From: Candidatus Electrothrix rattekaaiensis
GTDB taxonomy: Bacteria > Desulfobacterota > Desulfobulbia > Desulfobulbales > Desulfobulbaceae
DNA: 64,000 nt
Assembly (NCBI GenBank): GCA_032595675.1
Contig: JAVQMD010000001.1
Location: forward strand, 2,078,640-2,142,639
Direction: 5' to 3'
Shown: piece by piece, positions 58,353-64,000 of the stretch
Layout: every line of letters begins with the position of its first letter
Position numbering within the stretch: the first letter of the stretch is position 1
The notes under the pieces: generated by a model
The model's input: only the letters and a program-made list of their open reading frames with translations
What the model was told of the DNA's origin: nothing
The model's database searches: none
Translations under genes and position numbers: made by a program

Positions 58353-58646
58353 TCAACAGCAACCCAAATCAACTTGTTTTTTCATGATCCTAGAGAGCCA
58401 CCTGTTGATGATCAGGGCGGCGCAGCCGCAACCGTCGTCTGGATTGACGTAAATGGCCTTGGTTGGGCAATTGGTGGCGCAGGCCCCGCATTCCATGCAG
58501 CCGTTATAATCCGTAATAGATGCCTTGTTGTTGCGCAGGGTAAAGATGCGGTGCGGGCATACGGTTACGCACATGCCGCAGCCGATACAGGCCTGCTCGT
58601 TCAGCCTGAGAATAGCGGCACCGTCAATATAACGAAAATCACGCAT
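58353..58646 (-). CDS. hgcB: HgcB ferredoxin-like protein of mercury methylation
   Basis: This 97-residue protein has two 4Fe-4S motifs: CIGCGMCVTVCP and the HgcB-type CMECGACATNCP. The later GCGC (Cys equivalent to HgcB C73) and a C-terminal DLGCC pair are both known HgcB features. The start ATG 58646 has AGGAG overlapping the end of hgcA, 4 nt upstream of the stop. HgcB passes electrons to the corrinoid of HgcA, which methylates mercury. Co-location with hgcA makes the call firm. Confidence 0.95.
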   Translation of the reverse strand: MRDFRYIDGAAILRLNEQACIGCGMCVTVCPHRIFTLRNNKASITDYNGCMECGACATNCPTKAIYVNPDDGCGCAALIINRWLSRIMKKQVDLGCC

Positions 58647-58650
58647 AGTT

Positions 58651-59808
58651 TTATACTCCTATGAAGGGGGCAATAATCCAGAGCAGCAGAGCAAAGAGGA
58701 CGCTGCCGCACTGGATCGGCAGCCCTTTGCGCATTTCCTGTTCCACGCCGGAAAGGGAGGTGAAAGGGGTTGCTCCGGTGAAATTCATCGCCATATAGGA
58801 TGACCCGGCCATAATCCAGAGCCAAGTTCCGATCTGTTCGGCAATCCCGGTTTCCGCCATAAAAGTTAACAGGTAGGCCATGCCCCCTATTGCGCCGGTC
58901 AGGGCTCCCTTGAACCAAAACTGACGGCCCGGAATCCAGGGCAGCAGGGCGGGAACGGCCAAGGCACCGGTCAAAATGGCACAAGCTGTGGCACCGACAG
59001 CGGTCCAGCCTCTGGCCCATGCCGCTGTCGGGGAATAGATATCCGGGCCGATACCGGAAAGGATAAAGCCGACAAGGGTTGCCAGGAGAAATTGTTTCCA
59101 GATAAGCGTGATCTCCACCGGAACTAGGGTCAGTCGTTCTGCCAAGGTGAAGGTCACCGAACGCTGGGCCTCGTCCGCCTTTTGATTTTGCCGCAGAAAC
59201 TGCGGAATATCTTCGGCGCGGATCGGCCCGAAAACTCCCTTGAATCCGCATTGCTTTTTCAGCTCATGCAGGGCAACACCGATGGCCGCAAACTGGGGTA
59301 AAATTACTTCCCGGTGGGAGACAACCCGCTCCAGCCCGCTCTGTTGCACCTGCCGGGCGACCTCATCCGTGGAAAAGGTTCGCTTGCCCGCTGCACACCA
59401 GACATTGATTCCCCTGGTATCCACCACCAGGAGCCAACTATCCAGACCAGTTAATTCCCTGCGCAGCGCATCAAAACTGAGTTTATAGTTGGCAGTGACA
59501 AACACCGGTGACTCTGGGGAAGGGCTCCCCACGCCATATAAGCCCGGATTAACCTTGTAGCGGTTGCGGGTAATGCCTGTACGCACCCGTATCATTCCGA
59601 GATGATCCCGGAAGCCCAACACGGTCTTGACCCGGGGGACAGCACCAACAGCTGTTTCAATAAACCCTGCTACATAGGGCTGGAGAGCGTATCCAGGTAA
59701 ATCGTGGATCCCCGACCTGGGATCAGATTTCGGCCCTCAGCAAGGGGCATCATCAAGGCTGACAGCCGGAACCAACGGGATTGTTCCTACCGGTTTCAAT
59801 TCTTTCAT
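58651..59808 (-). CDS. hgcA: HgcA corrinoid methyltransferase, probable selenoprotein (in-frame TGA)
   Basis: The protein has the HgcA cap-helix motif GINVWCAAGKRT (ligand Cys138) preceded by VTANYKLSFDALRREL, and a C-terminal five-helix membrane domain (WKQFLLATLVGFILSG onwards). From the first usable start downstream (GTG 59622) the conserved segment YALQPYVAGFIETAVGAVPR would be lost. The frame continues upstream from there to ATG 59808 except for TGA 59737-59739, codon 24, preceded by Cys23 in DDAPC(TGA)GPKSD. Many HgcA N-termini have, as I recall, adjacent Cys here. Selenocysteine insertion is supported by the stem-loop just after the TGA. Full length would be 385 residues. Mercury methylation needs hgcB, which follows. 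Confidence 0.85.
59699..59730 (-). promoter_or_regulatory. candidate bacterial SECIS element in hgcA
   Basis: Beginning 6 nt after the TGA on the coding strand, AAATC pairs with GATTT and, past a bulge (T opposite CAC), GATCCC pairs with GGGATC. The apical loop is AGGTCG. The apical loop starts 18 nt after the TGA and contains G at position 2. These match the general rules for bacterial SECIS elements (TGA to loop 16-37 nt; a G among the first two loop bases), as I know them. Not experimentally shown. Confidence 0.65.
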
Positions 59809-59830
59809 GGGTTGTAAATCTCTTCTCTTA

Positions 59831-59875
59831 GGCTAGCGACCCCTGCTCAACGGAACAACAAACCATCCGCCACAT
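59831..59875. repeat. diverged copy of the hsdR 3' end
   Basis: Over 44 bases this matches 60973-61016 at about 84% (identical ACAACAAACCATCCGCCACA at the end). The second copy encodes the last residues of HsdR (LWRMVCC). The copies flank the RRM and lipoprotein genes. Confidence 0.7.
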
Positions 59876-59891
59876 GATCTAACCGTATTCG

Positions 59892-60140
59892 TTATGTCTT
59901 TTTATTTTCAGCCTTCTTAACCCGTATTTGATGACTACCAAGAGTTTTGTTGTTCAGGTTTTTGATTGCAGCTTTTGCCTCACCAGGCTTTGGCATCTCA
60001 ATGAAGGCAAAACCTTTGGATGTACCGTTTTCAAGGTCGAGTACCAAGTTGCAATATTGAACGGCACCGAACTCTTGAAATATTTTTTTCAGCTCATCTT
60101 CTGTGGTTGATCGATCGAGGTTACGTATGAGTAATTTCAT
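59892..60140 (-). CDS. RRM RNA-binding protein
   Basis: This is an 82-residue single RNA-recognition motif. The N-terminal RNP2 is KLLIRNLDRSTTEDELKKIF, RNP1 is SKGFAFIEM, and KAENKKT is a basic end. ATG 60140 is chosen because GGAG lies 7 nt upstream and it starts the domain; a longer frame reaches back without a ribosome site. Bacterial single-RRM proteins are common cold-shock or RNA chaperones. It lies between hgcA and a lipoprotein in a segment bordered by repeats. Confidence 0.92.
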   Translation of the reverse strand: MKLLIRNLDRSTTEDELKKIFQEFGAVQYCNLVLDLENGTSKGFAFIEMPKPGEAKAAIKNLNNKTLGSHQIRVKKAENKKT

Positions 60141-60972: not shown

Positions 60973-61016
60973 GGCAAGCGGCTCCTACTCAGCTGGACAA
61001 CAAACCATCCGCCACA
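60973..61016. repeat. repeat at the hsdR 3' end
   Basis: This is the partner of the copy at 59831. It covers the last codons of HsdR and its flank. Confidence 0.7.
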
Positions 61017-64000
61017 GCGTATCAAAAAAGGCCTGTTGAAAGGCCTCATCCTTGGCATAGAGTTTATACAATTCCAGTTCCTTGCGGCGTTGGGCCGTCA
61101 TGACCTCATGGAGGATTTTTGCAAAGGCCAGGCTGCTGTTTTGCCGATCCGGGTTATCAGCCACCTTGGCCTGAAAATCAGGATGGGCAAGGATATGTTG
61201 CTGCAAAGAGATAAAACGAACTTTCTGCTCCTCCGGGGTTGCATCCCAGCCCTGGAACCAGCGTGCATTAAAGGCGTTAACAATCAGATCCAGGGGATCC
61301 TCTGCCGGTTCCTCATGCACACCCCGAGGATTGGGATTGGCTGGTTCGACCTCGCTGGCTGCCTCATCCAGTTCGATGGCCTGATTGAGCCGAGTGCGTT
61401 CTAGGCCATAGGTGGCCAGATCCACGGATTCCAGCAACTCATCCAGCAGATCATCCTCCTTGCGCAGGATAACCAGCTTAGGAATGAGGAATTTGAGAAA
61501 CCAGAAGAGTTGTTCCCAGGCCAGGATTTCAAAATGGATAATCGCCGCCATCTGGCCGTAAATCTTAACAAACTGCTTGGCCTTGATCTTGAAATCCGCC
61601 TTACTCTCCTCGTCCAGCTCCAATTCCTGCTGAAAGCGCAGGGCCGCCTGATCAAGAAGGGGGCTCAAGGCATCAGCATCCTTATTGGCAAAATAGCCTT
61701 GACTAAAGTTCTCCACCTCAGCCCATTCATAGACCCCTGGTTCATCCAAAACCGCTTTTAATTCGTGGAGGACATTGACATCCGTGGCCCTGCTCAGCGA
61801 GGTGGCAGTGTAAAAGGGAGTAAAAGCCTCCTGAATCTCCTCGACTTCGTTAAAAAAATCGAGAATAAACAGATCTTCGGTCTTTTTGCCCAGGGCATTT
61901 GCCGAGCGATTGAGCCGCGACAGGGCCTGCACCGCCAGCACCCCTTGGAGCTTTTTATCCACGTACATGGTGCAGAGTTTGGCCTGATCAAAACCGGTCA
62001 AGTACTTATTGGCCACCACCAAGAGGCGGTAGTCGTCCTGATCAAATCGCTTCCGGGTATCGCCTTCGGCAAAGCCGTTCATGCCTGCCTCTGTATAGGC
62101 AATCCCATCCACGGTTTTCTCCCCGGAAAAGGCAATGGCAATCTTGAAGGGCCGTCCTTTGTCCCCTAAAATCCTATCCAGGGCCTGATAATAGCGGATG
62201 GCCGAGGCAATACTCTGGCAGAGCACCATGCCCTTGGCCTTGCCTTTGAGTTTTTTGCTCCTGACCACCTTGTCGATGAAATGCTCCAGGATGATCTCTG
62301 CCTTGGTGGCAATAGTGCGCCGATCCTGCTCAACAAAGGACTTCAGTTTTTTCTGAGCCTTGTTGGTGTTGAACAGGGGGTTTTCAGCAATGGATTTTTC
62401 AATCTGGTAATAGCTTTTATAGGTGGTGTAATTGGCCAGCACATCAAGGATAAAGCCCTCCTCAATGGCCTGTTTCATCGAATAGAGATGACAGGGCTGA
62501 AAGCTGCCATCGCCCTGCTTGCTACCAAATTTTTCCAGGGTGCTGTTCTTGGGCGTGGCAGTAAAGGCAAAATAGGAGGCATTGCCCTTCATCTTGCGGG
62601 CTCGCATGGCCTTGAGGATGATATCCTGGGCATCCTCCTCTGCTTCCTCACTGTTCCCCATAGCCTGATTGATGGCATCGGCCCCGCTGCCGCCTTGGGA
62701 ACTGTGGGCCTCATCAATGAGCACGGCAAAGCGTTTCTGGCTCAGATCAGCAATGCTCTCCACGATCACGGGAAATTTCTGCAAGGTGGTGACGATGATC
62801 CGCTTGCCCTGTTCCAGAGCGGCCTTGAGTTCCTTGCCCGATCCCACCCGAGCAACAATATTCTTCACCTCGGAAAAGGCAGCGATATTGTCGCCCAGTT
62901 GTTTATCCAGCAACCTTCTGTCGGTGACCACAATAACCGAATCAAAGAGGGGGCAATCCCTGCCTCTGTCTTTAGTAACGTTGCCATCCGGACAAACATC
63001 CGCCTTATCAGCCGGATACGTTGCTATCAGCTGATAGGCACACCAAGTGATGGAATGGGATTTGCCTGAACCGGCAGAATGCTGGATCAGATAGGAATGG
63101 CCCACCCCGTTGTTGCTGGCATGATCCAGGAGCTGGCGCACCACATCCAACTGATGATAGCGGGGAAAAAAGAGGGTCTTCTTGCTCAGGGGATCTTTGG
63201 GCTTGCCGCTCAGGAGGACAAAATGCTGGATGATATTGGCAAGGCTGGAACGGCTGAAGATCTCCTGCCAGAGGTAGGCGGTCTTATGACCGTGGGGATT
63301 GATAGGATTGCCCTTGCCCCAGTTATTCCCCTTATTAAAGGGGAGAAAAAAGGAGTCCTTGCCTGCTAGACGGGTACACATATAGACTTCATCGGTATCC
63401 AGGGTGAAATGGACCAGACAGCGGCCAAAACTGAGCAGGGGTTGGCGGCAATCCCGCTCGTTTGTGTACTGCCTAATCCCGTTGACCGCTGCGCTTTGAC
63501 CGGTCCAGTGGTTTTTCAGCTCTAGGGTTGCCAAGGGCAGGCCGTTGCAAAAAATGGCCATGTCGATGGCTTCAGCGGGTTTATCCTGGTTATAATGGAC
63601 TTAGCGGATCACACTGAACTGGTTGCTGTTGAATTTCTCCTGCACAACTGCGCTGCTGGCCAGTTGGTAGAAGAGGGTGAAGGCGGCATCGTCCACTTCC
63701 AGGCCCTTGCGCAGGAGGTGGAGCACCCCGTATTTTTTGATCATGCGATCTAGGCGGGTGAGGATCTTCACTTGCCAATCGCCTGTGCGTTGGAGCTTGG
63801 TCAGCTCTTGGGGTTGGGTGGTTTCGAGGAAGCTCCAAAAGCGGGGTTCGTCCAGGGCGTATTTTGGGTTGAAGTCCTTGGAGGCTCCTTGGTGGAAGCC
63901 TTGGCCTGTGCGATAAGGCAGGGATTGTTCCGCGACGCTGTCGGGTTGGCTGGTGGCCAGCTCTTCTCGGCAGGTGCCAGTGAGGGCTTTTTCTATGGTG
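60985..64000 (-). pseudogene. hsdR: type I restriction enzyme HsdR (5' partial) with in-frame nonsense codon
   Basis: The frame is open to the window edge apart from TAA at 63601-63603. It contains the helicase Walker A LIQHSAGSGKSHSI, DEAH-type LIDEAHSSQGG, ASYFAFTATPKNST, LTGFDQAKLCTMYVDK and, upstream, the nuclease-type sequence ATLELKNHW, so restriction motor and cleavage regions are represented. The stop sits in VIR(stop)VHYN where HsdR usually has R-Q-V-H-Y, consistent with CAA to TAA. The gene starts just beyond the window edge. The subunit is probably non-functional unless the stop is suppressed or a sequence error. Confidence 0.85.

Follow-up and report, generated by a model that had tools for sequence, protein, structure and literature searches.

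The window analysed here is a stretch of 64,000 nucleotides from Candidatus Electrothrix rattekaaiensis (GCA_032595675.1, contig JAVQMD010000001.1). On its minus strand it carries hgcA and hgcB, whose products HgcAB make methylmercury, the toxic product of mercury methylation. The features of the locus are as follows.

58353–58646, minus strand: hgcB, a dicluster ferredoxin having a Cys in the position equivalent to Cys73, plus a Cys-Cys pair at the C terminus
58651–59808, minus strand: hgcA, which gives 385 residues when the TGA is read as Sec, among them a corrinoid domain, the cap helix NVWCAAGK (Cys138) and a membrane domain with five long predicted helices
59674–59808, minus strand: N-terminal tail of HgcA, residues 1–45, bearing the putative Cys-Sec pair; predicted confidence is low for residues 1–30
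59707–59724, minus strand: candidate SECIS-type hairpin, GATCCC-AGGTCG-GGGATC, beginning 12 nt past the TGA
59737–59739, minus strand: in-frame TGA, codon 24, here read as selenocysteine; position 2 of a Cys-Cys/Cys-Sec pair

As an earlier note on this DNA had proposed, the ATG at 59808 is in frame with the TGA at 59737–59739, and the frame then stays open to the TAA at 58651–58653; an in-frame TAG lies 27 nt upstream of the ATG. Read through, the gene gives 385 residues with residue 24 in the context DDAPC-U-GPKSDPRSG, and its identity as HgcA is supported by an NCBIfam score of 412.6 bits (equivalog cut-off 275), in a match that begins at residue 57 and places the tail outside the model. The note's statement that the frame past the TGA offers no ATG, GTG or TTG before 59622 also holds, the first being the GTG at that position (residue 63). 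The cap helix N(V/I)WCAAGK is present as NVWCAAGK, with Cys138 invariant in a 51-row alignment, and the long helices predicted by a structure model of the membrane domain (229–250, 260–291, 297–316, 322–342 and 352–383) agree with the five transmembrane helices of HgcA. Searching the PDB by sequence with HgcA returned only CFeSP subunits (four distinct sequences), and the HgcAB model 9a0b was retrieved by fold comparison only. The corrinoid-binding domain of the CFeSP large subunit (2h9a, 4c1n, 2ycl) is like that of the HgcA model (Z 17.5–17.9, rmsd 1.3–1.4 over 125–127 residues), but the match is confined to model residues 66–209 and leaves the tail and the membrane domain unmatched.

The gene next to hgcA encodes HgcB (NCBIfam 108 bits, cut-off 99). 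Directly upstream of hgcA is a gene for a small RNA-recognition-motif protein (PF00076; 59892–60227, minus strand), and further on there is a long frame (60985–63561, minus strand) that we take, by eye, to resemble the R subunit of a type I restriction enzyme. A scan of the whole window found 19 places with a TGA near a Cys in a frame, the hgcA site included.

Selenocysteine-containing HgcA has already been predicted in print, and the window gene adds one more case at the least. The earlier note knew of no such protein, which is out of date: a table in a 2026 review lists both HgcA (NF040863, CU, WP_250697417.1) and HgcB (NF040864, GVGU) as selenoproteins (PMC13188914). For Sec HgcA the same table cites Zhang and Gladyshev 2008 and Haft and Gwadz 2023, the latter also cited for it by a 2024 paper; a term search of the main text of Zhang and Gladyshev 2008 returned no CO dehydrogenase or corrinoid entry. 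The listed HgcA belongs to the same protein family as the window gene and has the same CU motif. In the listed HgcB, Sec occurs in the same two-protein system but at the Cys73 place of HgcB. What is added here is the occurrence of CU in 125 of 301 distinct HgcA and in 20 of 20 readable proteins from Pseudodesulfovibrio, to which the model methylator ND132 belongs, together with residue numbering in strain ND132 that fits a start past the TGA.

The proposed Cys-Sec site and its hairpin across relatives

In the class, 140 of 257 genomes contain HgcA at E ≤ 1e-40. The 142 class loci that were read are HgcA-length or partial HgcA matches (CdhD-type matches, L027–L030, were left out), and they divide into 89 with Cys-TGA at the site (CU), 27 with Cys-Cys (CC), 21 with no pair and 5 cut by contig ends; motif rules vary by script, and a second count gave 90 CU, 31 CC and 21 without. 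The TGA is preceded by TGC or TGT in all 89 CU loci, and both codons are TGC or TGT in the 27 CC loci. These Cys proteins, with CCG at the site, share the HgcA body and the vicinal pair with the window gene, and hgcB lies beside most of those with readable downstream DNA; they differ in having a Cys codon for the TGA and in lacking the conserved hairpin. The earlier expectation of a Cys here was thus borne out by the 27 class CC loci, and also by the 51-row alignment, in which Cys (with Sec scored as Cys) occupies position 23 in 46 rows and position 24 in 48. An in-frame UGA aligned with a Cys of homologues is what is looked for in a selenoprotein.

Beyond the class, HgcA was found in 115 of 395 genomes of the phylum, from which 107 further loci were read (the partial matches G491, G337, G389, G403 and G311 were left out), and named loci were taken as the best 80 of 579 matches. 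Under the widest motif rule these 187 further loci comprise 55 with Sec, 79 with Cys and 53 with neither. After identical 120-residue bodies had been dropped, the 301 distinct HgcA comprised 125 CU, 5 UC, 102 CC and 69 without a pair; the CU shares are biased upward, since the search started from a CU protein and only the best 80 of 579 matches were kept. The 69 proteins without a pair, some of them cut by contig ends, count against the selenocysteine reading. Named carriers of CU include Desulfoprunum benzoelyticum DSM 28570 (L197), Desulfopila aestuarii DSM 18488 (L198) and Desulfopila sp. IMCC35008 (L228), and the closest named relative of the window gene among the best 80 of 579 matches is an uncultured Desulfobulbaceae bacterium (L193, 65%). 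A FastTree tree of 296 HgcA bodies requires CU and CC to have interchanged 16 times or more, a figure from which we draw no conclusion. At L006 the CC tail is intact and a lone in-frame TGA lies further on (YSVGKP-TGA-NDSPVL), not at a Cys, which is likely a sequencing error or decay.

The earlier note had described a two-part SECIS-like stem after the TGA. Its inner part, GATCCC/GGGATC, is supported by a family-level shuffle test, whereas the outer part, AAATC/GATTT, finds no support outside the window gene: it is present here, but in the nearest relative (L002) it contains a mismatch and falls outside the predicted fold. Among distinct CU windows, a helix of 5 bp or more stands equally far from the TGA in 64 of 84 from the class, 34 of 35 from the phylum and named sets and 16 of 17 from Pseudodesulfovibrio, as against 14–18% of synonymous-codon shuffles. 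In every CU group, the mean helix of the real windows exceeded that of all 200 shuffled sets drawn under this protein-preserving null, a comparison in which kinship among the sequences remains. By contrast, CC windows are at the null level (helix in 9 of 100, against 9% in shuffles), and a first run on the class only gave the same picture, with the helix in CU and not in CC. The stems themselves vary in their letters by lineage: of the 136 CU windows, 114 have a 5-bp stem, and 40 different stems are seen in these; since stems were chosen as best helices, only the shuffle comparison is a test of them. GG at +22/+23 is found in 81 of 84 class windows, 3 of 35 in the phylum group and 0 of 17 in Pseudodesulfovibrio, and therefore the loop letters are not common to all.

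Two results count against the selenocysteine reading at this level. Folded alone, the hairpin stretch of the window gene was no better than shuffles (z 0.01), and 22 of the 136 distinct CU windows (20/84, 1/35 and 1/17) have no 5-bp helix at the tested place. In addition, an Rfam scan of 59500–59950 matched no family. Judged by these comparisons, the hairpin is kept by selection as RNA in CU genes, and the putative bacterial SECIS element is recognizable at the level of the family and not by folding a single gene.

The machinery that the earlier note had asked for is complete: the genome encodes SelA (626 bits), SelB (375.9 bits) and SelD (343.8 bits), and it has a tRNA-Sec (74.8 bits) that ARAGORN calls as tRNA-SeC (tca). 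The selD gene (L072) itself carries an in-frame TGA, and there is also a second selD-like gene without one (L073, G000:C1:1741955-1742899). The presence of selB alone is weak evidence, because most genomes of the class have the gene (213 of 257). A comparison of the lists by hand found selB at E ≤ 1e-80 in 78 of the 88 class genomes with CU; of the 10 that lack it, 8 carry tRNA-Sec. The two genomes G211 and G220, drafts that are 91% and 85% complete, have CU yet neither selB nor tRNA-Sec at the thresholds used, which counts against.

Taken together, the UGA at the place of a conserved second Cys, the hairpin kept as RNA and the SelA, SelB, SelD and tRNA-Sec of the genome give us high confidence that hgcA here encodes a selenoprotein, with Sec inserted at the UGA of codon 24. 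SelB would bind the hairpin and insert Sec at this codon.

The start of HgcA and model strain ND132

The genus of the Pseudodesulfovibrio metagenome-assembled genome L235 comprises 36 genomes, 21 of them with HgcA. CU is present in all 20 HgcA that can be read at the site, the 21st being cut by a contig end, and of these 21 genomes 20 have selB and the remaining one has tRNA-Sec. In ND132, the cap Cys of HgcA is numbered 93 (PMC11588087). Counted on the window protein, whose cap Cys is residue 138, this numbering corresponds to a start at residue 46, about 22 residues past the place of the TGA, and a GTG lies exactly at the residue-46 equivalent in 12 of the 20 Pseudodesulfovibrio genes and not in the other 8. 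The model 9a0b, which shares its title with the paper on modelling of ND132 HgcAB (PMC7305189), matches residues 55–384 of our model and leaves the first 54 without a counterpart; 9a0b alone does not fix the ND132 start, because models may omit residues. From the Cys93 numbering, the extent of 9a0b and the UGA in congeners, we infer that the published ‘full-length’ ND132 HgcA probably starts past the UGA place and lacks the Sec tail.

These observations also bear on a rival account of the window gene, in which translation does stop at the TGA and a separate start downstream of it (here the GTG at 59622) gives HgcA. It is favoured by the ND132 numbering and by the GTG that gives cap Cys93 in those 12 Pseudodesulfovibrio genes, and E. 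coli lysates containing recombinant ND132 HgcAB, which appears tail-less, do form methylmercury (PMC11588087). However, a start at GTG 59622 would delete a predicted β-hairpin at residues 46–60 (strands 46–52 and 55–60, block pLDDT 90 and 97), and codons 1–23, ahead of the TGA, are conserved at the protein level, the window gene differing there from L002 by six synonymous and two non-synonymous codon changes. Moreover, TGA swaps with TGC or TGT at the site, and the hairpin tracks TGA and not Cys codons (a TAA or TAG at the site would be invisible to our scripts, because they end the frame there). We therefore regard an internal start as very unlikely. Less likely still is that the UGA is decoded as another residue (Trp or Cys, by near-cognate read-through) or reflects an error of sequencing or assembly. 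In principle, every in-frame TGA is open to such readings, and the lone TGA of L006 indicates that errors or decay occur, but here the TGA stands at one site in 89 of 142 class loci, with Cys codons there in 27, and is accompanied by the hairpin and the Sec genes. The earlier note had named resequencing to a sense codon as a possible refutation; an error is most unlikely, because the TGA recurs in many genomes.

We consider it likely that P. mercurii ND132, too, makes HgcA as a selenoprotein, and that the form which has been annotated and cloned starts past the UGA. In that case, both the structural model and the biochemical work on mercury methylation would rest on a tail-less protein, and native formation of methylmercury in the genus may respond to the supply of selenium. 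Among the publications listed by our literature searches, none takes up, in title or abstract, a Sec tail missing from the ND132 protein. If many HgcA do carry Cys-Sec tails that annotation has clipped, the genus of the reference strain included, then neither the annotated hgcA genes nor the structural models nor the recombinant enzymes would be complete, and selenium status would become a testable variable in mercury methylation. Because the recombinant, apparently tail-less ND132 proteins are active, the chemistry itself can evidently proceed in the absence of the Cys-Sec pair.

A probably flexible tail and its possible role

An AlphaFold2 model built with 51 sequences has a mean pLDDT of 90.3. 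Confidence rises along the tail in blocks from 46 (residues 1–10) through 54 (11–20) and 64 (21–30) to 70 (31–40), and later blocks are at 90 or above except 341–350 (63), 351–360 (83) and 381–385 (82). On this model, the Cys-Sec pair probably sits on a flexible tail.

In HgcB, a flexible C-terminal pair, Cys94/95, has been proposed as a carrier that brings Hg(II) to the corrinoid and passes methylmercury on to Cys73 (PMC7305189). By analogy, the Cys-Sec tail of HgcA could use rapid thiolate/selenolate exchange to capture, hand on or release methylmercury or Hg(II); this is the role that we favour for the tail, at about even odds. The selenolate of the tail would then speed the exchange of Hg species. 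The main alternative, which we consider less probable, is that of a redox dyad, as in the tails of thioredoxin reductases, in which Cys-Sec would reduce the corrinoid or an Hg-bound disulfide rather than bind Hg. In favour of this role, vicinal Cys-Sec pairs have known redox functions, and Sec is in most cases a catalytic residue. Nevertheless, the electrons for the corrinoid have been assigned to the clusters of HgcB (PMC11588087), and the several Cys-Cys pairs in some non-Sec HgcA tails look more like metal capture. Such tails, in which Pro often comes after the pairs and which resemble metal-capture tails, are found at L178, L180, L181, L182, L183, L184 and L189.

HgcB has its own TGA in some loci. 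At the Cys73 place (PGVGU, in agreement with the Sec-HgcB motif listed by the review), it was observed in 20 of the 242 distinct loci with a readable HgcB (L125, L218, L220, L221, L232, L234, L237, L238, L239, L246, L250, L254, L256, L257, L258, L259, L262, L267, L268 and L272), in 14 of which the HgcA tail is without a Cys pair. None of the 95 CU loci with a readable HgcB combines HgcA CU with HgcB Sec. Mutual exclusion of Sec between the two proteins does not follow from this: HgcB changes between Cys and Sec only twice on the FastTree tree, which leaves one or two independent pairs and puts significance out of reach, so the 0 of 95 is no test of exclusion. In a wider tail window L221 has UC plus HgcB-Sec, whereas it is labelled CC in the set of 301.

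The order of the pair is reversed in the HgcA tails of L279, L315, L318 and L330, where TGA precedes Cys (UC), as in GGSTUCSGG of L315. L345, the fifth locus labelled UC in the set of 301, proves on closer reading to have C-L-U there. The UC and C-L-U tails are possible further forms of the selenothiol site.
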